A stretch of 31,926 nt of DNA from positions 1 through 31,926 of IMG/VR virus record IMGVR_UViG_3300044825_000669. One strand, written 5' to 3'. This document shows, in pieces, positions 5,849-17,201 of the stretch. The translations under genes and the position numbers were made by a program. The DNA comes from a virus. Every line of letters starts with the position of its first letter. Position 1 is the stretch's first letter. The notes beneath the pieces were generated by a model. The model was not told the DNA's origin. It saw only the letters and a program-made list of their open reading frames with translations, and did no database searches.

Positions 5849-7612
5849 ATGCCCGTAAAACGCCGTACAGACGCTGCTAGAGGGGACTCCGTGTTAGAGT
5901 CCCTTCAACAGGATTTTAAACTATTTCTCCAAGCCCTTTGGGGACAACTTGATCTACCTTCACCGACACGTGCTCAATACGCTATTGCCGACTATCTACA
6001 ACACGGTCCAAAGCGTTTACAGATCCAAGCGTTTCGGGGTGTAGGTAAATCGTGGATTACTGGTGCCTTTGTTCTTTGGACACTCTTTAATAATCCCGAA
6101 AAGAAGATCATGATTATCTCCGCTTCTAAGGAGCGTGCAGACAACATGTCTATCTTCCTACAAAAACTGATCATTGAGACACCGTGGCTAGTACATCTTA
6201 GACCGAAGTCAGATGATGCCCGGTGGTCTCGTATTAGTTTTGATGTTAACTGCAGTCCACACCAAGCACCATCCGTTAAATCAGTCGGTATTACCGGTCA
6301 GTTAACCGGTTCACGTGCTGATTTGATGATTCTTGATGACATTGAAGTTCCTGGTAACTCAATGACTGAAATGATGCGAGAAAAACTTTTGCAACTGTGT
6401 ACAGAAGCTGAGTCAATCCTTACTCCTAAAACGGATTCAAGGATTATGTACCTTGGTACACCTCAGACTACTTTTACCATTTACCGTAAACTAGCCGAAC
6501 GTAACTATCGACCGTTTGTTTGGCCTGCAAGAGTCCCTCGTAAACTGTCAAACTACGAAGGATTAATTGCTCCTCAACTTCAAGAAGACATTGATAACGG
6601 TGCTGAACCGTGGTCAGTAACAGATCCTGATCGTTTCCAAGACGATGATCTGCTTGAACGGGAAGCAGCAATGGGTAGGAGCAACTTTATGCTCCAGTTC
6701 ATGCTTGATACGAGTCTTAGTGATGCAGAAAAGTTCCCACTTAAGTTCCAAGACCTTATCATTACCTCCGTTAACCCGACTCAAGCGCCGGATTCTGTTG
6801 TGTGGTGCAGTGATCCTCGTAATGTGCTCAAGGATCTGCCTACGGTTGGCTTACCGGGTGATTATTTCTACTCCCCGATGCAGCTTCAAGGAGAGTGGGG
6901 TCCGTATACTGAAACAATCTGCAGCGTTGACCCGTCAGGTAGAGGCACAGACGAAACAGCTGCCACGTACATAAGCCAACGCAACGGCTTCTTGTACGTT
7001 CATGAGATCCGTTCTTATCGAGACGGTTACTCCGACAACACTTTGCTAGACATTCTCAGGGGTTGTAAGAAGTATAACGTTACCAACCTTGTTATTGAAA
7101 CAAACTTTGGTGACGGTATTGTCTCCGAACTATTCCGTAAACATCTCCAGCAAACTAAACAGAACATCGGTATTGAAGAAGTACGGGCTAACGTCCGTAA
7201 AGAAGAACGAATTATCGATGCTCTTGAACCCATTATGAACCAACACCGACTCATCATTGATCGTGGTGTTGTTGAATGGGATTACAACAGTAACAAAGAC
7301 GATCCACCCGAGAAACGACTGCTGTACATGCTCTTCTATCAAATGAGTCGCATGTGTCGTGAGAAGTTTGCTATTAAACACGATGACCGTCTAGACTCTC
7401 TTGCACAAGGCGTTAAGTATTTTACCGATGCTATGGGTATCTCTGCCCAAGAAACGGTAAAACAACGTAAAATGGAAGAGTGGAACGACATGCTTACAGC
7501 ATTTATTGACGACCCTCAATCTGAGACAAACCATCTTGTTTTGGGTATGTCCTTAGACCAAAAAAGACAAGCAAGAGGATTTTCTAAAGGTCAGTCTATG
7601 ACTTGGATTTAA
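5849..7612 (+). CDS. Terminase large subunit (T7 gp19-like packaging motor and nuclease)
   Basis: A 587-residue packaging ATPase and nuclease, the same size as T7 gp19. Walker A-type loop FRGVGKSW (Lys67), Walker B LMILDDIEV (Asp163-Asp164, Glu166), and the coupling motif YLGTPQT (about 201-207) form the ATPase. The RNase H-like nuclease follows with SVDPSGRGTDE (Asp361), LVIETNFGDG (Glu417) and HDDRLDSLAQGVKYF (Asp513, Asp516). It pumps DNA through the portal into the procapsid and cuts the concatemer. In T7 it is almost the last gene before the right genome end, which fits the gene-free structured region about 1.15 kb downstream. The gene is followed at once by the 20-base repeat (7614) and a terminator (7662). 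Confidence 0.97.
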   Translation: MPVKRRTDAARGDSVLESLQQDFKLFLQALWGQLDLPSPTRAQYAIADYLQHGPKRLQIQAFRGVGKSWITGAFVLWTLFNNPEKKIMIISASKERADNMSIFLQKLIIETPWLVHLRPKSDDARWSRISFDVNCSPHQAPSVKSVGITGQLTGSRADLMILDDIEVPGNSMTEMMREKLLQLCTEAESILTPKTDSRIMYLGTPQTTFTIYRKLAERNYRPFVWPARVPRKLSNYEGLIAPQLQEDIDNGAEPWSVTDPDRFQDDDLLEREAAMGRSNFMLQFMLDTSLSDAEKFPLKFQDLIITSVNPTQAPDSVVWCSDPRNVLKDLPTVGLPGDYFYSPMQLQGEWGPYTETICSVDPSGRGTDETAATYISQRNGFLYVHEIRSYRDGYSDNTLLDILRGCKKYNVTNLVIETNFGDGIVSELFRKHLQQTKQNIGIEEVRANVRKEERIIDALEPIMNQHRLIIDRGVVEWDYNSNKDDPPEKRLLYMLFYQMSRMCREKFAIKHDDRLDSLAQGVKYFTDAMGISAQETVKQRKMEEWNDMLTAFIDDPQSETNHLVLGMSLDQKRQARGFSKGQSMTWI

Positions 7613-7613
7613 C

Positions 7614-7633
7614 AGGTCCGTTATGTATACAGG
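7614..7633 (+). repeat. 20-base perfect direct repeat, copy 1 (candidate phage RNA polymerase promoter)
   Basis: AGGTCCGTTATGTATACAGG occurs here, 2 bases after the large terminase stop, and identically at 13021-13040 inside the RNA polymerase gene. In both places it runs into a GAGAA sequence (one extra G in the second copy). Chance identity of 20 bases in a window this size is very unlikely. AT-rich TGTATACA followed by GGAGAA or GGGAGAA resembles the initiation end of T7-family promoters (TATAGGGAGA), and T7 has a promoter (phi-OR) just beyond gene 19. Promoter function is inference. Confidence 0.55.
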
Positions 7634-7661
7634 AGAAGGGAGGGTGGACCCAACTCCTGGG

Positions 7662-7696
7662 GGAGAGGAAGACAATCATTTCTTTCTCTCCTTTTT
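7662..7696 (+). terminator. Rho-independent terminator downstream of the large terminase gene
   Basis: GGAGAGGAAG (7662-7671) pairs over 10 positions, one of them G-U, with CTTTCTCTCC (7682-7691) around a 10-base loop, followed by TTTTT. It lies 50 bases after the terminase stop and about 90 bases before thyX, separating the packaging block from thyX. Confidence 0.78.
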
Positions 7697-7783
7697 CTAC
7701 GGTAAACCGAATAAGGTTTTATTTTTCCTCCCCATTAAACAAAATACGGTTATTTCCGTTTTACTACTGTCTGTCTAACACGT

Positions 7784-8455
7784 ATGACTACTTCCCACCA
7801 AGTAGAACCTTTGTTTCACTCCGTTCAACTTATTCACATCACACCTGATGCAGAAGAACTAATAGCTTACATGGCTAGAGTCTCTAACCCATCTAATCAA
7901 AACAACACTAAGACAAGTGCTAAGTTAATTAGATACCTTATTGAACACAAACATTGGTCACCGTTTGAAATGGTGAACATGTGTGTACAAATTGAAACTA
8001 CTCGGTCTATAGCAGCACAAATCCTTCGGCATCGGAGTTTCTCCTTTCAGGAGTTCTCTCAACGGTACGCACGGGTAGAGGAGATTCCCCGTAGTCCTTC
8101 CCTTCGGCGTCAAGATCAAAAGAACAGGCAGAACAGTATTGATGATCTAGATGAAGTAATTAAAAACAACCTGGATTACGAAATCACCAAACACTTTGCA
8201 GCCGGTGTTCACCTGTATCAACAGATGTTGGACTATGGAGTGGCTAAGGAATGTGCAAGAGACGTGCTTCCGTTGGCAGCTCCAACAAAGATGTACATGA
8301 ATGGAACCATTCGGTCTTGGTTGCATTACTGCGACCTTCGTACCGCTAATGGTACTCAAAAAGAACACGCACAGATAGCTGGTCAAGTCCAAGACCTGCT
8401 GTATCAACACCTTCCTAATGTTTGTGAGGCAATGTGGGAAAAGAACTTAAGTTGA
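7784..8455 (+). CDS. thyX: FAD-dependent thymidylate synthase ThyX
   Basis: A 223-residue flavin-dependent thymidylate synthase, about the usual family size. The signature RHRX7S is present as Arg82-His83-Arg84 to Ser92 (RHRSFSFQEFSQRYAR). The N-terminal MARVSNPSNQ and the HWSPFEMVNMCVQIETTRS segment fit the substrate/FAD region, and KECARDVLPLAAPTKMYMNG with RSWLHYCDLRT is the conserved C-terminal part. It makes dTMP from dUMP using methylene-tetrahydrofolate and NADPH, supplying dTTP for phage DNA. Marine cyanobacteria and their phages commonly use ThyX. It lies alone between the packaging genes and the presumed genome end, away from the other nucleotide genes at 20-23 kb. Start chosen at ATG 7784; no strong Shine-Dalgarno motif. 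Confidence 0.96.
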   Translation: MTTSHQVEPLFHSVQLIHITPDAEELIAYMARVSNPSNQNNTKTSAKLIRYLIEHKHWSPFEMVNMCVQIETTRSIAAQILRHRSFSFQEFSQRYARVEEIPRSPSLRRQDQKNRQNSIDDLDEVIKNNLDYEITKHFAAGVHLYQQMLDYGVAKECARDVLPLAAPTKMYMNGTIRSWLHYCDLRTANGTQKEHAQIAGQVQDLLYQHLPNVCEAMWEKNLS

Positions 8456-8766
8456 ATGAGTTCCACACACTGTATGTAACGTGGAAGCAAGGCATCCCTT
8501 GGTTTGATCACCTGCTGCTTGGCCTGCTTGTCTGGATTGAACGGTGGGTAATAGATAATCGGATTAAAACCGATTTAGACACCGCTATTGAACAGTTTCA
8601 TACGGAGGTTAAGGCGGTTGAATTTGACTATGTGACTCCTATTTACACAGAACAGCCCGGAGAGGGCAGTTTTGGCGTCTCTGAGTTGCGTTTAACCGCT
8701 CCTTGGTATAGAGAGGGCTTAGAAGGGGTAGAAGCTATTACAGAGCCTTCTAGAGGGGTCTCATAA
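8434..8766 (+). CDS. Hypothetical protein overlapping thyX
   Basis: A 110-residue protein whose ATG (8434) lies 22 bases inside the end of thyX; a TTG at 8452 is an alternative start. It has an amphipathic to hydrophobic region (about residues 10-40, PWFDHLLLGLLVWIERWVID), then a charged segment and an acidic C-terminus (YREGLEGVEAITEPSRG). I recognise no family. The hydrophobic stretch may be a membrane-associated helix. It is the last gene before the gene-free structured region, the position of T7 gene 19.5, though I claim no homology. Confidence 0.6.
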   Translation: MGKELKLNEFHTLYVTWKQGIPWFDHLLLGLLVWIERWVIDNRIKTDLDTAIEQFHTEVKAVEFDYVTPIYTEQPGEGSFGVSELRLTAPWYREGLEGVEAITEPSRGVS

Positions 8767-8951
8767 AATCCAACAAAAATCTTTCTGGTCTATTAACGGA
8801 TACGGCGGGCCGCACAACCCCCGTGTGGGGGTGGCCGCAGGCGCACACGCGTTGTAACCCACCCCCAGGCCGGTGTAGAGCCGGTGCAACGCCCGCCCTC
8901 GCCCGTAGTAACCCACGCACAACGGGTGCTCAGCGAGCCAGCAAGCTGCCA

Positions 8952-8981
8952 TGACCGGCTCTGAACCGTGCTTGACCGGCT
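8952..8981. repeat. Direct repeat TGACCGGCT with related GACCGG copies nearby
   Basis: TGACCGGCT occurs at 8952-8960 and 8973-8981, 21 bases apart (two helical turns), each followed by a GAA(A)CCG motif within a few bases. Related GACCGG copies lie near 9314 and 9330. This spacing suits protein-binding sites, but the GC-rich background makes chance repeats likelier. Confidence 0.4.
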
Positions 8982-9173
8982 GAAACCGCTTGCCCTGACT
9001 AGGATTTGATGCGATCTGTTGCGCCTTCATTAGCAATGCCTATGACACCGATAAGCAACAGTTATAACCATTGCGCTGCAACGGTTTAGCGCCAGTCATC
9101 CACCACCACTGTGCCAGTTCAACCGACTGTCCACCACCAAACCGGCTCGACACCGTGTAGGATGACCCTTGGA

Positions 9174-9247
9174 TGAGTGGTTGATGATCTTGATCTCGAC
9201 TCTCCCTGTTAAGGGGGAGGAGAGTCTCGATCTTCAATCACCACTCA
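9174..9247. repeat. Large imperfect inverted repeat / long hairpin
   Basis: A 74-base imperfect palindrome. The outer arms TGAGTGGTTGAT (9174-9185) and ATCACCACTCA (9237-9247) pair with one bulged T; inside, GATC (9192-9195) pairs with GATC (9229-9232), and GACTCTCC (9198-9205) pairs perfectly with GGAGAGTC (9219-9226) around a 13-base loop. It lies in the gene-free region presumed to contain the genome ends. Possible roles are a packaging or concatemer-processing site, a structured RNA, or a terminator; no T-run follows. Confidence 0.68.
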
Positions 9248-9514
9248 CCACCTCACCGAACCTTGACAACCGAATAAGCACACCGCTTCCGGAGCAACCG
9301 GTAGGCAGCGACGACCGGCATGGGTACTTGACCGGGAGGTGTGGTAGACACGTCACAGCGGCGAGGCACAGCCGCTAGATGCGCTACTGCGTATCGCTAC
9401 AAGTATGCTCATGCCACCGGCCATGCCCTGCACCGACAGGCCGCCCGTTTGAGTCGGGCTATGGTCATTGCGATCACAAGGTCGCAACACATTCCATCAT
9501 TACACTTTCACAAC

Positions 9515-9748
9515 ATGCCTACTTTCAACATTGCTCCTCGTACCTCTGATGCTGTCTCGTATCTGCAGGTTGACCCGTTCAACGGTGTTGCCTACGTTAC
9601 GTTTGAGAACGGCTACGAGTATGAGTACACCAACGTTAGCCGCCGGGCTATCATGAACCTGTTGCTCAATCCCAACATGTCGCTTGGGTTCTGGGTTAAC
9701 AAGAACTGCGTTAACACTAAGCGTACTTCTTATCTTCAACTGGCCTGA
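9515..9748 (+). CDS. KTSC-domain early protein
   Basis: A 77-residue protein starting at ATG 9515; the open frame extends upstream but only this part looks like protein. The sequence (SDAVSYLQVDPFNGVAYVTF, YEYEYTNVSRRAIMNLLL, MSLGFWVNKNCVN) follows the KTSC domain pattern: a strand with S-x-x-x, L-x-V-x-F, Y-x-Y-x-N-V, then a helix and S-x-G-x-W/F-x-N. The domain's function is not established. It is the first clear gene after the presumed genome end, the T7 class I position, so a role in host takeover is likely but unproven. Confidence 0.78.
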   Translation: MPTFNIAPRTSDAVSYLQVDPFNGVAYVTFENGYEYEYTNVSRRAIMNLLLNPNMSLGFWVNKNCVNTKRTSYLQLA

Positions 9749-9793
9749 TCTTCAGCCCCAGCGTCTCGTTTCACTCGACTGTTGGTTACACTT

Positions 9794-9836
9794 AAGCGTC
9801 ACTAATCCGACGCTTTCCTGTAGCCCACAAGCTACA
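9794..9836 (+). promoter_or_regulatory. Two consecutive hairpins upstream of an early gene; second belongs to a repeated element
   Basis: AAGCGTC (9794-9800) pairs with GACGCTT (9809-9815), and immediately after TGTAGC (9819-9824) pairs with GCTACA (9831-9836). The second hairpin with its leading CTTTCCTGTAG has a close copy at 10224-10243 (CTTTTCTGTAG...GCTACA), also upstream of an early gene. Possible leader, RNA-processing or promoter element; there is no gene in 9749-9865. Confidence 0.45.
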
Positions 9837-9865
9837 CTTACCTGTTCGCTTGCTTTACATACAAC

Positions 9866-10177
9866 ATGACCAACATGCACACCGCTCTCGCTGCTCGCTT
9901 CACCGATGCAGATGAGATCAAGGACGTAGCCAACTATGGCTGCGCCGGAGGTGTCTCTGGCTTCATCTATTACTCCGAGACTGAGAAGTTCTTCGATGAG
10001 TATGAAGATGAGATTTACGATTACCTCAACGATTGCGGGTTCTCTATGAAGAACTTTGTTGACACTGGTTCTACTATCTCCACCCTCAAGAATGAGATGG
10101 TGTGGTGTGTAGTTGAGCTGTGGTGTCAAGCACAACACATGGGTAATGAGCTTGAGCGTGCGGCTCTCGCTGCCTAA
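9866..10177 (+). CDS. Early hypothetical protein (DUF7222-like)
   Basis: A 103-residue acidic protein. The opening (TALAARFTDADEIKDVANYG) and the core GGVSGFIYYSETEKFFDEYE and EIYDYLNDCGF, then STLKNEMVWCVVELWCQ, resemble a family of small phage early proteins I associate with DUF7222; the number is from memory. Function unknown. A second in-frame ATG at 9878 is possible. It lies downstream of two leader hairpins and before the array of tiny genes. Confidence 0.75.
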   Translation: MTNMHTALAARFTDADEIKDVANYGCAGGVSGFIYYSETEKFFDEYEDEIYDYLNDCGFSMKNFVDTGSTISTLKNEMVWCVVELWCQAQHMGNELERAALAA

Positions 10178-10223
10178 GCCTGACGATTACACTCAGGGAT
10201 GCACAGCAATGTGTCTCCTTTTC

Positions 10224-10243
10224 TGTAGTCCTCAATGGCTACA
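10224..10243 (+). promoter_or_regulatory. Repeated leader hairpin, copy 2
   Basis: TGTAG (10224-10228) pairs with CTACA (10239-10243) around a 10-base loop. The preceding CTTTTCT and the stem match the hairpin at 9819-9836 (CTTTYCTGTAG, then GCTACA), and both stand 25-30 bases before an early gene's ATG. A GGAG Shine-Dalgarno motif follows at 10257-10260. Confidence 0.42.
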
Positions 10244-10266
10244 TGTTCACTTACATGGAGTTAGTT

Positions 10267-10410
10267 ATGTCCAACATTGAATACCTGCGTCAGCAGCTTG
10301 AGTATGCAGAAGAGCAGCTCATGATCGCTGATGACATGTACACCAAGATCACATGGGGTAACCGATGTGATGCACTTGAGGCTGCCCTTGCTGATGCGGA
10401 GGCAGCGTGA
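10267..10410 (+). CDS. Small early protein, 47 aa, helical
   Basis: Starts at ATG 10267 with GGAG seven bases upstream, and its TGA overlaps the next ATG. The peptide (IEYLRQQLEYAEEQLMIADD, then WGNRCDALEAALADAEAA) is acidic and looks like two helices with coiled-coil spacing. No known function; small acidic early proteins in T7-like phages often bind host proteins, which is only a suggestion here. Confidence 0.72.
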   Translation: MSNIEYLRQQLEYAEEQLMIADDMYTKITWGNRCDALEAALADAEAA

Positions 10411-10553
10411 TGGAGTACATCAACCCTGCACCTGATCAGTCTTCCTTAGACGTTTGGATCAACGCAAGTTATCAAACAGTAAGGACTTACCCTGATCACA
10501 TCTTGTTTACGTATGAATTGTTGTCTCGTATTGATGAGGAGGTTTACTACTGA
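10410..10553 (+). CDS. Small early protein, 47 aa
   Basis: Starts in the TGATG overlap at 10410 with a strong GGAGG seven bases upstream, inside the preceding gene. The peptide (EYINPAPDQSSLDVWINASY, then YELLSRIDEEVYY) is acidic, with a predicted helix at the C-terminus. I recognise no family. It is too short for usual gene calls, but the overlap and ribosome site argue that it is real. Confidence 0.62.
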   Translation: MEYINPAPDQSSLDVWINASYQTVRTYPDHILFTYELLSRIDEEVYY

Positions 10554-10726
10554 TGCAGTACCAAGTTCTTTACACCAAGGGTCGTGATGTCTGTGCCTGT
10601 GAGTACGTAACTGCTCGCTCAGTTATGGAAGCATGGAGCATGGGTGATGCACGAGCACAAGGACATGAGCGTGTCCTTGATGTTGTCCCGATGAACACTA
10701 ACCTGCACACTTACAAGGAGTTCTGA
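10553..10726 (+). CDS. Small early protein, 57 aa, strand-strand-helix-strand pattern
   Basis: Starts in the TGATG overlap at 10553 with GAGGAGG ten bases upstream. The peptide reads as two strands (YQVLYTKG, VCACEYVTA), a helix (SVMEAWSMGDARAQG) and a strand (RVLDVVPMN). The same order is seen in the early proteins at 10726, 11478, 11618 and, longer, 11769. Function unknown; a CxC pair (Cys14, Cys16) is present. Confidence 0.65.
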   Translation: MQYQVLYTKGRDVCACEYVTARSVMEAWSMGDARAQGHERVLDVVPMNTNLHTYKEF

Positions 10727-10887
10727 TGACCTACTACATCAACCGTCAGCAAGGACGCTACGATGAAACGTGTGATGAATACGACACACGTACTGAAGCT
10801 TACGCTATGCTGCGTGAGTATCAAGTAGCCGATCATGGTCGTGCTTACTATTACCTGTCCACCACATGTAAGGAGAATTGGAAATGA
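10726..10887 (+). CDS. Small early protein, 53 aa, strand-strand-helix-strand pattern
   Basis: Starts in the TGATG overlap at 10726 with AGGAG five bases upstream. The peptide opens MTYYINRQQG, continues with CDEYDTRTEAYAMLREYQVA and ends AYYYLSTTCKENWK. The strand-strand-helix-strand order and the T-x-x-x-A helix start match its neighbours. It resembles small proteins seen in other cyanophages, with no established function. Confidence 0.66.
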   Translation: MTYYINRQQGRYDETCDEYDTRTEAYAMLREYQVADHGRAYYYLSTTCKENWK

Positions 10888-11024
10888 TTACTGAAAAGAA
10901 TAGAGAGTTTGTTAACTTTCTTTTTGACAAGCTTGTGTCTCATGTAGACACTGACATGATTGATCTGCACGATGATGACTCATGCTGCGATCATCTTGAG
11001 TTTCAACAACTGGAGTTAATCTGA
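10884..11024 (+). CDS. Small acidic early protein, 46 aa
   Basis: Starts at ATG 10884 overlapping the previous stop by 4 bases (ATGA), with AAGGAGA upstream. The peptide has an N-terminal helix (KNREFVNFLFDKLVSHV) and a very acidic middle (DLHDDDSCCDHLEF) with adjacent cysteines and two histidines that could bind metal. No family recognised. Confidence 0.6.
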   Translation: MITEKNREFVNFLFDKLVSHVDTDMIDLHDDDSCCDHLEFQQLELI

Positions 11025-11209
11025 TGACTGAACAATCCACTGCAATCAAAGTACCTACATTCCCTGATGAGTTCAAACCTATCATCAAGGTACTCAATCG
11101 TGCATGTTGTAATGATGACATTATGCAGCATGTAACTGAAGAGGAAGCTGGTCTTATTAGTGGCTGGCTTGATGAATTTAAAGACCTTGCATTGGAGTTT
11201 GCTGAATGA
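11024..11209 (+). CDS. Small acidic early protein, 61 aa
   Basis: Starts in the TGATG overlap with GGAG upstream. The peptide (PTFPDEFKPIIKVLNRACCN, then TEEEAGLISGWLDEFKDLAL) looks like three short helices and is acidic. It overlaps the next gene by 4 bases (ATGA). Unknown function; part of the coupled early array. Confidence 0.7.
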   Translation: MTEQSTAIKVPTFPDEFKPIIKVLNRACCNDDIMQHVTEEEAGLISGWLDEFKDLALEFAE

Positions 11210-11478
11210 CTGAAACACTTACTCGATCCCGTGAATGGCTGCTACTTAATGCAGTCGAAGCGTGGCTGTATCACTATAAAGATGCAGGCACACCTACTGT
11301 CGCTCAGTATCAAGAACTGCAGCGAGAGTTCCATGATGCGTACATGCTAGCTAGCGAGCTACCTCTGCAAACCTTGAGCATGGACGTAGTTGAGCGTAGC
11401 GAAGCACCAGCTGAACCTACTCAAGATGAAGCCCCTAAAGTTTCATCGCCTACACGTAAACGTACCACCAGGAAGTAA
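11206..11478 (+). CDS. Early hypothetical protein, 90 aa
   Basis: Starts at ATG 11206 with GGAG upstream in the preceding gene. An N-terminal helical half (SREWLLLNAVEAWLYHYKDA, QELQREFHDAYMLASELP) is followed by a Pro/Glu-rich linker and a basic tail (SPTRKRTTRK). The tail suggests nucleic-acid contact. No family recognised. Its TAA overlaps the next start (TAATG). Confidence 0.68.
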   Translation: MTETLTRSREWLLLNAVEAWLYHYKDAGTPTVAQYQELQREFHDAYMLASELPLQTLSMDVVERSEAPAEPTQDEAPKVSSPTRKRTTRK

Positions 11479-11621
11479 TGTTTGCTGTCCTTGAAAGTCA
11501 TGAAGTTGTGGAGTATTATCCCGACGAAACTTCTGCTTACAACTGTGCTATTGATTTACTAGATCGTGAAGATTCACGTGATCTCATGGTCGTACAGATC
11601 ATTGAAAAGTTTAAACAATGA
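11478..11621 (+). CDS. Small early protein, 47 aa, strand-strand-helix-strand pattern
   Basis: Starts in the TAATG overlap at 11478. The peptide reads FAVLESHEVVEYYP (strands), TSAYNCAIDLLDREDS (helix), LMVVQIIEKF (strand). The same order is seen in early proteins at 10553, 10726 and 11618. Function unknown. It overlaps the next gene as ATGA. Confidence 0.6.
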   Translation: MFAVLESHEVVEYYPDETSAYNCAIDLLDREDSRDLMVVQIIEKFKQ

Positions 11622-11779
11622 TTCACAATCATCAACCCCGTTTATACGAAGTCACGCTAAGTTCAGGCACTATTCATCTATTAGCGCCCGATTCTGAGCA
11701 AGCCGCATGGATGGCTCTAGAATTGTCCCAAGAACGCAACGACAAACTAATCAATGTGAGGCAATCCGATGAGTGGTAA
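11618..11779 (+). CDS. Small early protein, 53 aa, strand-strand-helix-strand pattern
   Basis: Starts at ATG 11618 (ATGA overlap). The peptide reads RLYEVTLSSGTIHLLAP (strands), SEQAAWMALELSQER (helix), KLINVRQSDEW (strand). Of the set this is the clearest match to the common small phage pattern of two strands, S-x-x-x-A helix, strand. Overlaps the next gene by 11 bases. Function unknown. Confidence 0.62.
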   Translation: MIHNHQPRLYEVTLSSGTIHLLAPDSEQAAWMALELSQERNDKLINVRQSDEW

Positions 11780-12083
11780 GCGTTACTTTCCCAACAACTA
11801 CGACATGTACAAGGACGCACCAGATGAGATGTTTGAACAGCATTCCTTTGAGGAGGTAATGGACTGGAAAGTAGGTGGTTGGGAGTTACCTTCATCCGTA
11901 TGTTGTATCATACGGGTACGTGACACCAAGACCTACAAGGTTCAAGAACACGTCTACATGCGTAGATCCGCAGCACAAACTAAAGTCAGCCAGCTAATGC
12001 ACACGCCTGACATTGAGTTTACTGTTTGTGATCACGAAGCAATCCACCACCTTACTTGTGAGAAACCTGACAATGACGACTAA
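11769..12083 (+). CDS. Early hypothetical protein, 104 aa
   Basis: Starts at ATG 11769 inside the previous gene, with GAGG upstream. The N-terminus (KRYFPNNYDMYKDAPDEMFE) is charged and probably helical; residues 43-95 (VCCIIRVRDTKTYKVQEHVY, SAAQTKVSQLMHTPDIEFTV) again give strands, a helix starting S-A-A, then a strand. It may be an extended member of the neighbouring small-protein group. Function unknown. Confidence 0.7.
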   Translation: MSGKRYFPNNYDMYKDAPDEMFEQHSFEEVMDWKVGGWELPSSVCCIIRVRDTKTYKVQEHVYMRRSAAQTKVSQLMHTPDIEFTVCDHEAIHHLTCEKPDNDD

Positions 12084-12228
12084 AGTTTACTATCGCCGGT
12101 TGCACGAATTGTGTGCACAACTGCAGAATCATCCCCATCGTGATGAGATCCTACAGCTGGCAATCGACCAGCTTGCTGATGACACCGACACTGTAAACTC
12201 TGCCTATGCCAACACCTGCACAAATTGA
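12073..12228 (+). CDS. Small early protein, 51 aa
   Basis: Starts at ATG 12073, 11 bases inside the preceding gene, and its last 23 bases overlap the RNA polymerase start. The peptide (VYYRRLHELCAQLQNHPHRD, then ILQLAIDQLADDTDTVNSAY) is mostly helical. An ATG at 12013 in the same frame is less likely because it would create a 71-base overlap. Translational coupling to the RNA polymerase is likely. Function unknown. Confidence 0.62.
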   Translation: MTTKVYYRRLHELCAQLQNHPHRDEILQLAIDQLADDTDTVNSAYANTCTN

Positions 12229-14548
12229 GGAGCAAGTACTTCTTGAACGTGAACAAATCCGGCAAGGACTCAAGGCATTACGTGATAACACACGTAAGCT
12301 AGAGGAGAAAGATTACGCCAGTGCTTCTGTCTATGGTGTAGCATCAGTTCAAACACTGATTCCGCTTGTTGTTAAACGGATTCAGCAAACAGCTGAGCGA
12401 CGCATTCATTCTGGATGTGTTGGTGTAGCCTTTGCTGAGATTCAACATTACCTTTCTGATGTTGAACCTGAGGTGGCAGCAGCTATCGCAAGCAAGATGA
12501 CTTTTGATAAGGTCTTCAGCGTTAAACCTTCGTGTTCACAAGTTCAGAATGTAGCCGATGCAATCGGTCAAGCACTTGAGAATGAGTGCATGATGCGTCA
12601 TTATGAACGTTCTGTACCTGGTTTGCTTAACGTACTGAAAGAGAACTATTGGCACAAGTCCATTGGTACTCATCAGAAGGTCAAGGTTATTACTACCTTG
12701 ATGAATCGTTATGATGTTGAGCATTGGAAAGCATGGGGTAGAGCCAACCGTATTAAACTTGGTGGTTGGTTACTTGATTGTATTTGCGAGGCAACTAACT
12801 GGTTCATGCGTGACATGAGGCAGGAAGGACGAAAGCGCCAGAACTACATTGTACCTACACCTGAGTTCCTTGAAATCAAGGACGAGGTAATAGCAACTGC
12901 TGAGTTATTCAGTCCAGTAACTTGGCCGATGTTGATTCCTCCCAATGATTGGAACCATACACAGCCTGGTGGATACCTTCTCAACGAGGTGATGCGTGGG
13001 CATGACATGGTGCGTAGGGGAGGTCCGTTATGTATACAGGGAGAAACACCGATCAAGTTTCTGAACAAGATTCAGAAGGTTGCCTACCGTATTAACCCGT
13101 TTATTACTGAGGTTGCTGAAACCTTAATGAGTAAACAGATAGAGGTAGGTAAGTTTATCCCTATCATTGAACTTCCCCTACCGCCTAAACCGGTAGACAT
13201 TGCGGAGAACAAAGAGAGTAGAAAAGATTACAGAAGAAGAGCAGCTGAGATTATGAACATCAATGCACAGTCTTTTCAACGATCATGCCGTACACGTATG
13301 ACGATGAATGCAGTGCAGGTGTTCAAAGATCGAGAGCAGTTCTACATTCCGTGGTCTTTTGATTACAGGGGAAGGGCTTACCCGATCCCAGCTTTTCTTA
13401 CTCCGCAAGATACTGACTTTGGTAAATCCTTACTAAAGTTTCATGATGAGTCTTTTGTTGATGACTACGCCTGTGATTGGTTAGCTTTTCAGGTCGCTAC
13501 TACGTACGGTCTTGATAAAGCACCCATGGCTGAGCGGTTAGCATGGACGCTAGAGAATCATGAACTCATCACACTCATCGCTACTGACCCGATTGCTAAT
13601 CTGCATAACTGGGAAGGTGTCGAAGAACCTTGGCAGTTTCTTGCTGCCTGTGAAGAGTACTACCATTGTGTGATTGCATGTGATCGTTCACATACTTCAC
13701 TGATGGTTGCTACAGATGCTACATGCAGTGGTCTTCAGATCCTTGCTGGATTGGCCCGAGATGCCTCTACAGCACGCCTTGTTAACGTCTTACCATCCGA
13801 TGTACCTCAAGACGCTTACAAGGTCGTTGCAGAGGCCGCTAAGCCCCACTGTCCTGAGTCTATTCAACCGTACATAGACCGAAAGACAGTCAAGCGTGTA
13901 GTAATGACTGTTCCTTACAACGCTAAACCGTATTCCAATCGTGGATACATCCGTGAAGCATTGAAGGATCGTGATGTAGAGATCGAAAAGGATGATCTCA
14001 CTGCTACAGTCAAGGCGGTCAGGGACGCAATGAACGTTGTAGTTCCTGGACCCATGGCTGTAATGACATGGATCGAAAGTGAGGTAGCTGAGGCTATCAA
14101 ACGTGGTGCGGCTGAGTTAACTTGGACTACACCTTCTGGGTTTGCCGTAACTCAACGACTGATGAAACCTGAGATTCAACGCATTGAGTTGCAATTACTT
14201 GGTACTTGTAACTTACGTGTTGCCGTTGGTGACTCTGATGAAGTTGACCTTAACCACCACAAGAACGCAACAGCACCTAACCTCATCCATTCCCTTGATG
14301 CATCGTTGTTGCACTTAGCTGCGCTACGCTTCGATGCACCGATTGCACTTATCCATGACTCTGTGTTATGCAGAGCCACGGACATGTCCACGCTATCTAC
14401 CTTGGTACGTGAGACATACATGCACCTGTTCGCAGAGCATGATTTTCTCAATGACTTCGCATCTCAAATAGGTGCGGAGACTGCCCCACCGATCATTGGC
14501 GATCTTAAGCCTGAGTCGGTTATTGAATCCACCTACTTTTTCTGTTAA
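12206..14548 (+). CDS. T7-like single-subunit DNA-directed RNA polymerase
   Basis: A 780-residue single-subunit RNA polymerase, about 100 residues shorter than T7 gp1. Motif A is VATDATCSGLQIL (Asp504, equivalent to T7 Asp537). Motif B is DRKTVKRVVMTVPYN (Lys563 and Tyr571, equivalent to T7 Lys631 and Tyr639). Motif C is IALIHDSVLC (His717-Asp718, equivalent to T7 Asp812). WSFDYRGRAYPIPAFLTP and HHKNATAPNLIHSLDAS are also conserved, and the C-terminus ends YFFC, similar to the aromatic FAFA end of T7. It transcribes the replication and virion genes from phage promoters; host polymerase must first make it. The 20-base repeat at 13021 lies within this gene. Start ATG 12206 overlaps the previous gene by 23 bases and lacks a clear Shine-Dalgarno motif. 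Confidence 0.98.
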   Translation: MPTPAQIEEQVLLEREQIRQGLKALRDNTRKLEEKDYASASVYGVASVQTLIPLVVKRIQQTAERRIHSGCVGVAFAEIQHYLSDVEPEVAAAIASKMTFDKVFSVKPSCSQVQNVADAIGQALENECMMRHYERSVPGLLNVLKENYWHKSIGTHQKVKVITTLMNRYDVEHWKAWGRANRIKLGGWLLDCICEATNWFMRDMRQEGRKRQNYIVPTPEFLEIKDEVIATAELFSPVTWPMLIPPNDWNHTQPGGYLLNEVMRGHDMVRRGGPLCIQGETPIKFLNKIQKVAYRINPFITEVAETLMSKQIEVGKFIPIIELPLPPKPVDIAENKESRKDYRRRAAEIMNINAQSFQRSCRTRMTMNAVQVFKDREQFYIPWSFDYRGRAYPIPAFLTPQDTDFGKSLLKFHDESFVDDYACDWLAFQVATTYGLDKAPMAERLAWTLENHELITLIATDPIANLHNWEGVEEPWQFLAACEEYYHCVIACDRSHTSLMVATDATCSGLQILAGLARDASTARLVNVLPSDVPQDAYKVVAEAAKPHCPESIQPYIDRKTVKRVVMTVPYNAKPYSNRGYIREALKDRDVEIEKDDLTATVKAVRDAMNVVVPGPMAVMTWIESEVAEAIKRGAAELTWTTPSGFAVTQRLMKPEIQRIELQLLGTCNLRVAVGDSDEVDLNHHKNATAPNLIHSLDASLLHLAALRFDAPIALIHDSVLCRATDMSTLSTLVRETYMHLFAEHDFLNDFASQIGAETAPPIIGDLKPESVIESTYFFC
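13021..13040 (+). repeat. 20-base perfect direct repeat, copy 2, inside the RNA polymerase gene
   Basis: Identical to 7614-7633 and followed by GAGAAAC. Here it encodes GPLCIQ near residues 273-279 of the polymerase. Preceding G-rich sequence (TAGGGG) is not shared. A promoter at this point would drive the second part of the polymerase gene and the downstream replication genes. Whether it is a promoter or a copied gene fragment cannot be settled from sequence. Confidence 0.55.
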
Positions 14549-15117
14549 TGGCACAAACCATCCACAAGACCGAACAGCCTGTTGTCCTTGAAGGGTTCCA
14601 AGCTGTACTGAAACCTGGCAAGTTTGGTTACAAATTGTCTGCACTTCTCGATCAAGACACGATCAACACGCTTGAAGATGAGCGTACTGAACTGCTCAAG
14701 TGGGCAGAATCTAAACTGAAGAACCCCAAGCGTTCGACCCTTAAGCCTGAGCCTTGGGAAGAAGTAAAGGACGGTCAATACCAAGTTCGCTTCAGTTGGA
14801 ATGATGAAACTCGTCCTCCTGTTGTTGATACTGAAGGCACGGTTATCACTGATGAAGATACTCCGCTGTATGGTGGATCTAAGGTTAAGCTGGCTTTCCG
14901 CCAGAAGCCCTACATCCTCAAGGACGGGGTTACTTACGGCACTAGCTTGAAGCTTGCTGGTATTCAAGTGATTGCACTTAACACCTCTGCAGGTGTGGAT
15001 ACTGGTGACATGGATGACGCATCAGTGGCTGAGTTGTTTGGTAAGACTGCTGGTTTCAAGGCATCTGATCCCAACGTGACTCCTTCTGCTGATGTAGTAG
15101 AGGATGATGACTTCTGA
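14548..15117 (+). CDS. Single-stranded DNA-binding protein (T7 gp2.5-like)
   Basis: A 189-residue protein in the T7 gene 2.5 position, directly after the RNA polymerase (TAATG overlap). The core has the strand-rich OB-fold pattern of this group (VRFSWNDETRPPVVDTEG, PLYGGSKVKLAFRQKPYIL, TYGTSLKLAGIQVIALN). The end is acidic with a terminal phenylalanine (VVEDDDF), the T7 gp2.5 arrangement that docks on polymerase and primase-helicase. It coats single strands and coordinates replication and annealing. Family assignment rests on position, fold pattern and tail. Confidence 0.9.
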   Translation: MAQTIHKTEQPVVLEGFQAVLKPGKFGYKLSALLDQDTINTLEDERTELLKWAESKLKNPKRSTLKPEPWEEVKDGQYQVRFSWNDETRPPVVDTEGTVITDEDTPLYGGSKVKLAFRQKPYILKDGVTYGTSLKLAGIQVIALNTSAGVDTGDMDDASVAELFGKTAGFKASDPNVTPSADVVEDDDF

Positions 15118-15664: not shown

Positions 15665-17201
15665 ACACTGTGGTTCATCGGATGCAAATTCTTTGTACTC
15701 CGATGGACACACTTTTTGCTTCTCGTGCAATGCGTACGGGCACACTGAAGAAGATGTTCACAATCACCAAATGTCCACCAATGTACAGTTACGCGGATCA
15801 GCTGAACGGCTGCAAAAACGACGTATCTCAGAAAAAGTCTGCAAGCAGTACCGGATACACAGGGACGGAGACGTTCTACGGTTCTATTATTTCAGCGATG
15901 CTGGAGTACTTGAAGGCTGTAAAGTAAAAACTAAAGACAAGGTATTTACCTACGAAGGCAATGTCCCAGGCACACTCTTTGGACAACATTTGTTTCCCGC
16001 CACTGGAAAACGAGTTGTCATTACAGAAGGCGAACTCGATGCAGCTTCATGTCAAGAAGCTATGCCGGGGTGGCCGATGGTATCTTTACCTAGCGGTGCC
16101 GCTTCGGCCAGGAAGTCGATTCAACGGGTTATCCCCTGGCTCCAGGGTTATGAAGAGATTGTCTTGTTCTTCGACAATGACACGGCAGGCCGTAAGGCGA
16201 CGGAGGAAGCAGCAAGCGTACTCCCACCTGGCAAGTGCAAGATTGCATCGCTCCCGGATGATTACAAAGATGCGTCAGACGCCCTCGTTGCCAATGACGC
16301 TCAAGCGATTCGTGAGGCTATTTGGAATGCAAAACCTTACCGTCCAGATGGGATCGTTGATGGGAAATCACTCCTAGAACTTGTAACCACACCTACACCA
16401 CCCGCTGATCATGACTACCCTTTCGCCGGACTACAAAATAAACTTCACGGGATCCGATACGGCGAGCTTGTTACAATTACTGCAGGATCTGGCATTGGTA
16501 AATCCAGCTTCTGTAGAGAGCTGGCAACTCACCTTCTCAATTCCGGTGAACGAGTTGGATACCTGGCTCTCGAAGAGTCAAATCGCAGGACAGCTCTTGG
16601 ACTGATGTCCGCAGCAGTTGGTAAATCACTACACCTTGGAGAACATGAACGATCTACTCTCACCCAAGCGTATCAGGATACTCTTGCTGTCTGGAATCTC
16701 TTTCTTTTCGACGGCTTTGGTTCTTTTGATCCTGATCTCATCTACAACCGAATTGAATACCTGGCAACAGGTCTTGATGCGCGGATCATCTTTCTAGATC
16801 ACCTCAGCATCTTGCTGTCTGGTCTTGATGGTGATGAACGCCGCATGATTGACACTACCATGACACGCCTACGTTCCCTTGTTGAACGTACTGGTGTTGC
16901 CATGTTCCTCGTCTCCCACCTCAGGCGAACATCATCTGATACAAACCATGAAGAGGGAGCACGTGTTACACTTGGACAGCTGCGAGGAAGTGCAGCTATT
17001 GCACAGCTGTCTGACGGAGTTATTGCACTTGAACGAAATCAACAGAGCACAAGCAAACAGTCTGACACGACTGTTAGAGTCCTCAAGAATCGCTATTCAG
17101 GCGAAGTTGGCATCGCGTGTAATCTAACTTACGATCTTTCCACCTGTAAATTCAATGAAACTCAACCAGAACAAGAGTTCGACCCAACAACAGACTTTTG
17201 A
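15621..17201 (+). CDS. DNA primase-helicase (T7 gp4-like)
   Basis: A 526-residue protein from ATG 15621; the longer frame from 15561 adds residues unlike T7 gp4. The zinc-binding primase domain has CEHC (Cys14, Cys17) and CFSC (Cys33, Cys36) around SLYSDGHTFC. The TOPRIM core has ITEGELDAAS (Glu136) and LFFDNDTAGR (Asp185, Asp187). The RecA-like helicase has Walker A AGSGIGKSS (about 288-296), Walker B IIFLDHLS (Asp393) and LRGSAAIAQLSDGVIALERN. The acidic end with terminal Phe (DPTTDF) matches the T7 gp4 polymerase-contact tail. It unwinds DNA and primes lagging-strand synthesis. Met51 could give a short form lacking zinc-binding, as in T7 gp4B. Overlaps both neighbours by 44-47 bases. Confidence 0.97.
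   Translation: MHNSESEFVRHLPCEHCGSSDANSLYSDGHTFCFSCNAYGHTEEDVHNHQMSTNVQLRGSAERLQKRRISEKVCKQYRIHRDGDVLRFYYFSDAGVLEGCKVKTKDKVFTYEGNVPGTLFGQHLFPATGKRVVITEGELDAASCQEAMPGWPMVSLPSGAASARKSIQRVIPWLQGYEEIVLFFDNDTAGRKATEEAASVLPPGKCKIASLPDDYKDASDALVANDAQAIREAIWNAKPYRPDGIVDGKSLLELVTTPTPPADHDYPFAGLQNKLHGIRYGELVTITAGSGIGKSSFCRELATHLLNSGERVGYLALEESNRRTALGLMSAAVGKSLHLGEHERSTLTQAYQDTLAVWNLFLFDGFGSFDPDLIYNRIEYLATGLDARIIFLDHLSILLSGLDGDERRMIDTTMTRLRSLVERTGVAMFLVSHLRRTSSDTNHEEGARVTLGQLRGSAAIAQLSDGVIALERNQQSTSKQSDTTVRVLKNRYSGEVGIACNLTYDLSTCKFNETQPEQEFDPTTDF

Follow-up and report, generated by a model that had tools for sequence, protein, structure and literature searches.

A duplicated 20-base element as the probable promoter of a cyanopodovirus's own T7-type RNA polymerase

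Introduction

What is the role of a 20-base sequence that a virus carries twice in identical form, once just behind its large terminase gene and once inside its RNA polymerase (RNAP) gene? The question is raised by the IMG/VR record IMGVR_UViG_3300044825_000669, which we analyzed over its whole length of 31,926 bases (referred to here as the window; the record is classed as a linear fragment). Judging from its gene content, namely a T7-type terminase, Thy1 (thyX), a T7-type RNA polymerase, endonuclease I, a primase/helicase, a portal, photosystem D1, and a gp10-type capsid protein, the window comes from a cyanopodovirus.

An initial annotation had read the two copies as cognate promoters of the phage polymerase, with a copied fragment of the polymerase gene as the alternative. 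We arrive at the same reading: with a probability of about 95%, estimated from sequence comparison, the two copies are promoters of this phage's own T7-type RNAP. The support comes from positions homologous to those of the Syn5 promoters, matching pairs in the relatives, synonymous constraint, and co-change with residues that align to T7 contacts. The features discussed below are collected in Table 1.

Table 1. Features of the window, with positions counted from its first base
Feature	Positions	Strand	Basis
Terminase large subunit gene (terL), upstream of copy 1	5849–7612	+	Pfam Terminase-T7_RNaseH-like 3e-36
Putative promoter copy 1 (phiOR-like)	7614–7633	+	Exact repeat; homologous to Syn5 right-end promoter; matches RNAP-gene copy within each genome
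Predicted hairpin at 5' end of predicted copy-1 transcript, conserved GGGTGGA in loop	7630–7659	+	Folds
Terminator-like hairpin (7659–7690) with T-rich tail	7659–7698	+	Such a hairpin in 64/96 relatives, 4.6% of shuffles
thyX, downstream of copy 1	7784–8455	+	Pfam Thy1 3e-47
Single-subunit T7-type RNAP gene	12206–14548	+	Pfam RNA_pol 1e-64, RPOL_N 3e-13; 76% identical to S-RIP2 RNAP
RNAP residues 63–72 = T7 89–99 (AT-rich recognition loop region)	12392–12421	+	Co-change with -15 to -12
RNAP Arg179 = T7 206	12740–12742	+	Co-change with -4
RNAP residues 206–211 = T7 233–240 (intercalating hairpin region)	12821–12838	+	Co-change with -6/-5
Putative promoter copy 2, within RNAP gene (codons 272–278)	13021–13040	+	Exact repeat; homologous to Syn5 RNAP-gene promoter; strongest synonymous constraint
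RNAP residues 652–681 = T7 739–770 (specificity loop)	14159–14248	+	Co-change with -11 to -7

The two copies and their counterparts in Syn5, T7, and KP34

The repeat is exact, as initially described: AGGTCCGTTATGTATACAGG occurs exactly twice in the window, both times on the plus strand. In 100 dinucleotide shuffles no match arose, so that no additional copy is expected by chance. Allowing up to three or up to four mismatches revealed no further copy on either strand of the window, so that the proposed search for more copies found none here, while the positions of the two copies turned out to be conserved in relatives. The count of two covers 31.9 kb; with a typical genome size of 45 kb, some 13 kb would lie outside it. 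Copy 1 begins 2 bases past the terL stop codon and copy 2 at nt 816 of the RNAP gene, which spans 2343 nt; they continue at their 3' sides as AGAAGGG and GAGAAAC, respectively. GPLCIQ can be read from both, and only copy 2 lies within a gene.

The cyanopodovirus Syn5 has a 15-bp promoter (ATTGGGCACCCGTAA) and only two promoters per genome, one of which is located within the RNAP gene (PMC3950665, PMC6834552). One promoter serves over 37 kb, and transcription by the cognate polymerase has been carried out in vitro (PMC3950665). In the Syn5 record, one is found at nt 810 of the RNAP gene and the other 6 bases past the terL stop. The likeness to our window extends to the places of the two copies (homologous RNAP codons and just after terL), the 15-bp recognition stretch, and the T7-type polymerase. 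Syn5 had already shown that a phage can have two promoters with one of them inside its RNAP gene, and this phage is a further case. It is a distant one, however: the two RNAPs are 39% identical and belong to distant clades, most of -15 to -4 differs, and the start regions read GTAA/GCAAGG in Syn5 and GTAT/ACAGGG here. In an ungapped alignment of Syn5 (GTAA followed by GCAAGGAGA, with G as +1) and the window (GTAT followed by ACAGGGAGA), the 20-mer corresponds exactly to -15 to +5. This would place +1 at 7629 for copy 1 and at 13036 for copy 2, uncertain by about 3 nt, rather than near 7632 and 13039 as first suggested.

The comparison with T7 drawn in the initial annotation holds for copy 1, which has the place of T7 phiOR. 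The latter lies 99 nt past gene 19, with about 0.7 kb remaining to the right end of the genome. For the equivalent of copy 1, this distance is 1.0–1.4 kb in Syn5, P-SSP7, S-TIP37, and S-SBP1, the four records whose terminal repeats are exact. In the window, the copy sits behind terL by position, the right end itself not being delimited in this contig. The comparison does not hold for copy 2, since a promoter inside the RNAP gene is a feature of Syn5, whereas the RNAP-linked promoters of T7 lie behind that gene. Both phages share the general layout of an upstream recognition block, a TATA-like melting stretch, and a purine-rich start, and both seem to have it read by the same elements of the RNAP. 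On the other hand, the T7 promoter occurs in many copies (16 matches with up to four mismatches), and its recognition block has no sequence identity to the window element. The T7 consensus TAATACGACTCACTATAGGGAGA is absent at both copy sites. The element is, on this comparison, not a promoter of T7 specificity and is instead assigned to a T7-type enzyme with a specificity of its own.

KP34 RNAP uses the promoters TAATGTTACAGGAGTA, and besides strong promoters a weak one within the RNAP gene has been reported (PMC6834552). As in the window, a promoter is thus found within or just behind the RNAP gene; KP34 differs in having three strong copies and a start after GGAGTA. The stretch ATGTTACAGGAGTA of KP34 resembles ATGTATACAGGAGAA of copy 1, which may be due to chance.

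Two other kinds of element were looked for. A sigma-70 scan of 7400–14600 gave no excess over shuffled sequence, and a tRNA-linked attachment site was rejected, as the window contains no tRNA.

A matching pair across the cyanopodoviruses

Relatives of the RNAP and terminase were gathered from IMG/VR and from named phage records. When the whole RNAP gene was compared with the post-terL region, the best match was located at RNAP nt 795–865 in 47 of 49 nonredundant genomes or contigs. The two exceptions are 7B11-B and L129, whose terL copies look like their RNAP copies shortened by a small deletion close to the TATA. The sequence of the element varies between phages and agrees within a genome: among the 49 relatives, the match score has a median of 20 for a phage's own pair, as compared to 9.5 for pairs taken across phages and at most 12 for shuffled sequence. 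The phage's own RNAP copy ranked first in 42 of the 49 (ties included); the remaining seven post-terL regions were closer to the RNAP copy of another phage, mostly that of a close relative. Examples of the element are AGGACATGTATACAGG in S-TIP37, TCCCTGCCTTATACAGG in S-RIP2, and AATTGGTGACAGTAAGCAGGG in P60, and the 104 RNAP genes collected display 58 different -12 to -4 cores. Agreement between the copies starts sharply at -15 and drops after about +6, and the flanking sequences are unrelated; the shared unit is therefore promoter sized. TAT at -3 to -1 is nearly invariant.

A scan of 23 genomes or records, the window included, found exactly two copies in 22. The other, S-CBP2, has a third promoter-like copy at 16389–16410, within the ribonucleotide reductase gene and with 2 mismatches in 22. 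In S-CBP1, S-CBP3, S-RIP1, 7B11-B, L129, and others, the post-terL copy is TATA-GGGG-like, as against TATACAGGG in the RNAP gene, as if the coding copy retained CAG for the sake of the protein.

Selection on the DNA itself is also seen at the coding copy. RNAP codons 271–280 carry the strongest synonymous-site constraint of the gene (104 RNAP genes). All 96 phages that have Ile at residue 277 encode it by ATA, a codon that accounts for 16% of Ile codons overall and does not exceed 46% at any of the other conserved Ile positions. The residue preceding Ile277 is variable (Cys, Arg, Leu, or Ser), with a codon that nearly always ends in T. Just 3' of the putative promoter, codon use is also somewhat biased at codons 285–293 (CTG for Leu286, CAG for Gln290).

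Co-change with the polymerase

Background-corrected mutual information was calculated between element positions and the residues of 97 distinct RNAPs, leaving out codons 255–295. The highest value links -8 to window residue 669 (aligned to T7 756), followed by -5 with T7 240, -4 with T7 206, -15 with T7 96, -10 with T7 748, and -9 with T7 754. The T7 residues aligned to the co-changing sites are ones that we take to be individual promoter contacts. Together, specificity-loop residues 661, 667, and 669 align to T7 748, 754, and 756.

The associations form a partly readable code. Residue 669 pairs with -8 as Lys with A (32 of 35), Gln with T (23/23), Glu with G (13/13), and His with C (7/7). Residue 211 (T7 240) is Thr with C at -5 in 46 of 46 cases and Arg with T in 45 of 45, residue 179 (T7 206) is Arg with G at -4 in 68 of 68, and residue 667 is Arg with C at -9 in 73 of 73. 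The noncoding terL copies give the same base–residue associations as the RNAP-gene copies. Counted on an RNAP tree built without the regions compared, all 23 changes at -5 coincide with a change at residue 211.

All 12 element positions (-15 to -4) couple most strongly to a residue within a contact region; this becomes 11 of 12 without the region around T7 206, which was named as a contact region only once the result was seen. The positions match the polymerase elements in collinear order, with the AT-rich loop for -15 to -12, the specificity loop for -11 to -7, and the intercalating hairpin for -6/-5, which is the pattern of a T7-type RNAP promoter. Because the hypergeometric co-change p-values are uncalibrated (branch lengths differ), 300 control sites were run. 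These reach contact regions 14% of the time, and their best p-value is 3e-9, compared to 5e-26 for the promoter positions; taken singly, not every promoter position falls below the control range, and the strongest pairs are far beyond it. As firmly as sequence alone can, the co-change identifies the element as this polymerase's promoter. In T7, specificity is determined by -12 to -7 (PMC6395800, citing Cheetham et al. 1999).

Hairpins behind copy 1

A hairpin directly follows copy 1 and not copy 2, and its loop (GGGTGGA, or GTGGTGC in relatives) is conserved. Across 88 relatives, it folds better with its own flanks than with swapped or shuffled ones, and its 5' arm overlaps the putative transcript start. 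A terminator-like hairpin comes next, beginning about 30 nt past that start, and is present in 64 of 96 relatives, as compared to 4.6% of shuffles. Rfam matches on 7500–7900 were all far below the gathering scores.

Copy 1 might drive a small conserved unit, running from about 7629 via the 5' hairpin with its GGGUGGA loop to a terminator at about 7690–7696. The product would be a structured RNA of about 65 nt, made near the genome end by most cyanopodoviruses and possibly serving to prime replication or to mark the concatemer junction for packaging. We hold this to be doubtful: Syn5 RNAP read through a T7 stem-loop terminator (PMC3950665), which weakens the idea of a small RNA. The pair of hairpins may instead serve to stop a polymerase where the late region ends, or to mark the junction.

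Weighing the alternatives

If recombination had placed a copy of a functionless piece of the RNAP gene behind terL, this would explain why both copies can be read as GPLCIQ and why one of them is coding. Such a fragment, however, would hardly have promoter-sized boundaries between unrelated flanks, nor would its two copies be kept matching within dozens of phages with differing sequences; synonymous constraint and co-change with polymerase contact residues are likewise unexpected. We consequently reject this explanation, whose probability we regard as negligible. The repeat could also be a site for recombination, packaging, or another DNA-binding protein of the phage. The proximity of copy 1 to the right end in relatives and the conserved hairpin behind it would fit, and the phiOR region of T3 and T7 is linked to packaging. 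Yet the residues that co-change with the element are those of the RNAP that align to T7 promoter contacts, and the equivalent pair of Syn5 has been defined experimentally as promoters. A site of this kind in place of a promoter is very improbable, while copy 1 may have a second role besides that of a promoter.

Slightly less remote, and still improbable, is that only copy 2 works as a promoter, the post-terL copy being weak or mainly used for a short terminated RNA. The nearby terminator-like hairpin speaks for this, as does KP34, where the weak RNAP-gene promoter beside strong ones implies that copies need not be equal. Against it, the post-terL copy matches the contact residues as well as the gene copy does, T7 has phiOR at the same place, and Syn5 is reported with two promoters and a polymerase that passed the T7 terminator.

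Two working promoters thus remain the preferred reading, from which the following course of events can be proposed. The host polymerase would make the early transcripts, including that of the RNAP. The new enzyme would then read -15 to -4 with those of its parts that correspond to the AT-rich loop, specificity loop, and intercalating hairpin of T7 RNAP, as the co-evolution supports, melt TAT at -3 to -1, and, going by the Syn5 alignment, start at or near the A (+1) of ACAGG. From copy 2, a very long transcript of the replication, capsid/structural, and packaging genes would be produced, as proposed for Syn5. As this transcript lacks the RNAP start codon, it would encode no full-length RNAP and should not amplify the enzyme. 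From copy 1, thyX and the right genome end would be transcribed, as by T7 phiOR. Copy 1 could have a replication or packaging role at the concatemer junction, and on concatemers it could read into the early genes.

Reach of the pair rule and future perspective

The observations on the pair can be turned into a rule, by which the best repeat common to the RNAP gene and the post-terL region is the likely promoter. As a positive control, the rule was applied to T7 with the search extended 150 nt past the RNAP gene. The repeat found, TTAATACGACTCACTATAGG, is the canonical T7 promoter and comes from phiOR and from the promoter that follows gene 1. In pelagiphage HTVC011P, the same search gave an exact 20-mer, CTAAGTGCCACTATTAGATA, at 8622–8641 and 39089–39108; its only exact copies lie right behind RNAP and right behind terL, making it a candidate promoter. 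Desulfovibrio phage ProddE has a 41-nt imperfect repeat containing TTCCACCTATCGGAAGA at about 8613–8653 and 42276–42316, again behind RNAP and behind terL.

A 2024 screen of 44 RNAP families reported 18 for which promoters could not be predicted successfully, and used the predicted promoters AAAATTCTTCAAGTTTACAA and CACTTCCACTCAACCAACCG for P-SSP7 and S-CBP42, respectively (PMC11475235). The pair rule instead gives AACCCCTACGTATACAGGGG and CATCTGGCCCATGTAAGCAGGG. In the open-access literature, Syn5 was the only marine Synechococcus or Prochlorococcus podovirus found with mapped promoters, and no report was found there of this phage's element, of the family-wide rule, or of the residue-to-base code.

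The rule reads a likely promoter from sequence alone and gives the right answer for both T7 and Syn5. Since start site and enzyme change together in some 100 related viruses, start sites should be predictable for related enzymes. Moreover, the residue-to-base code is partly readable, which would make predictions of specificity at the level of single residues directly testable.
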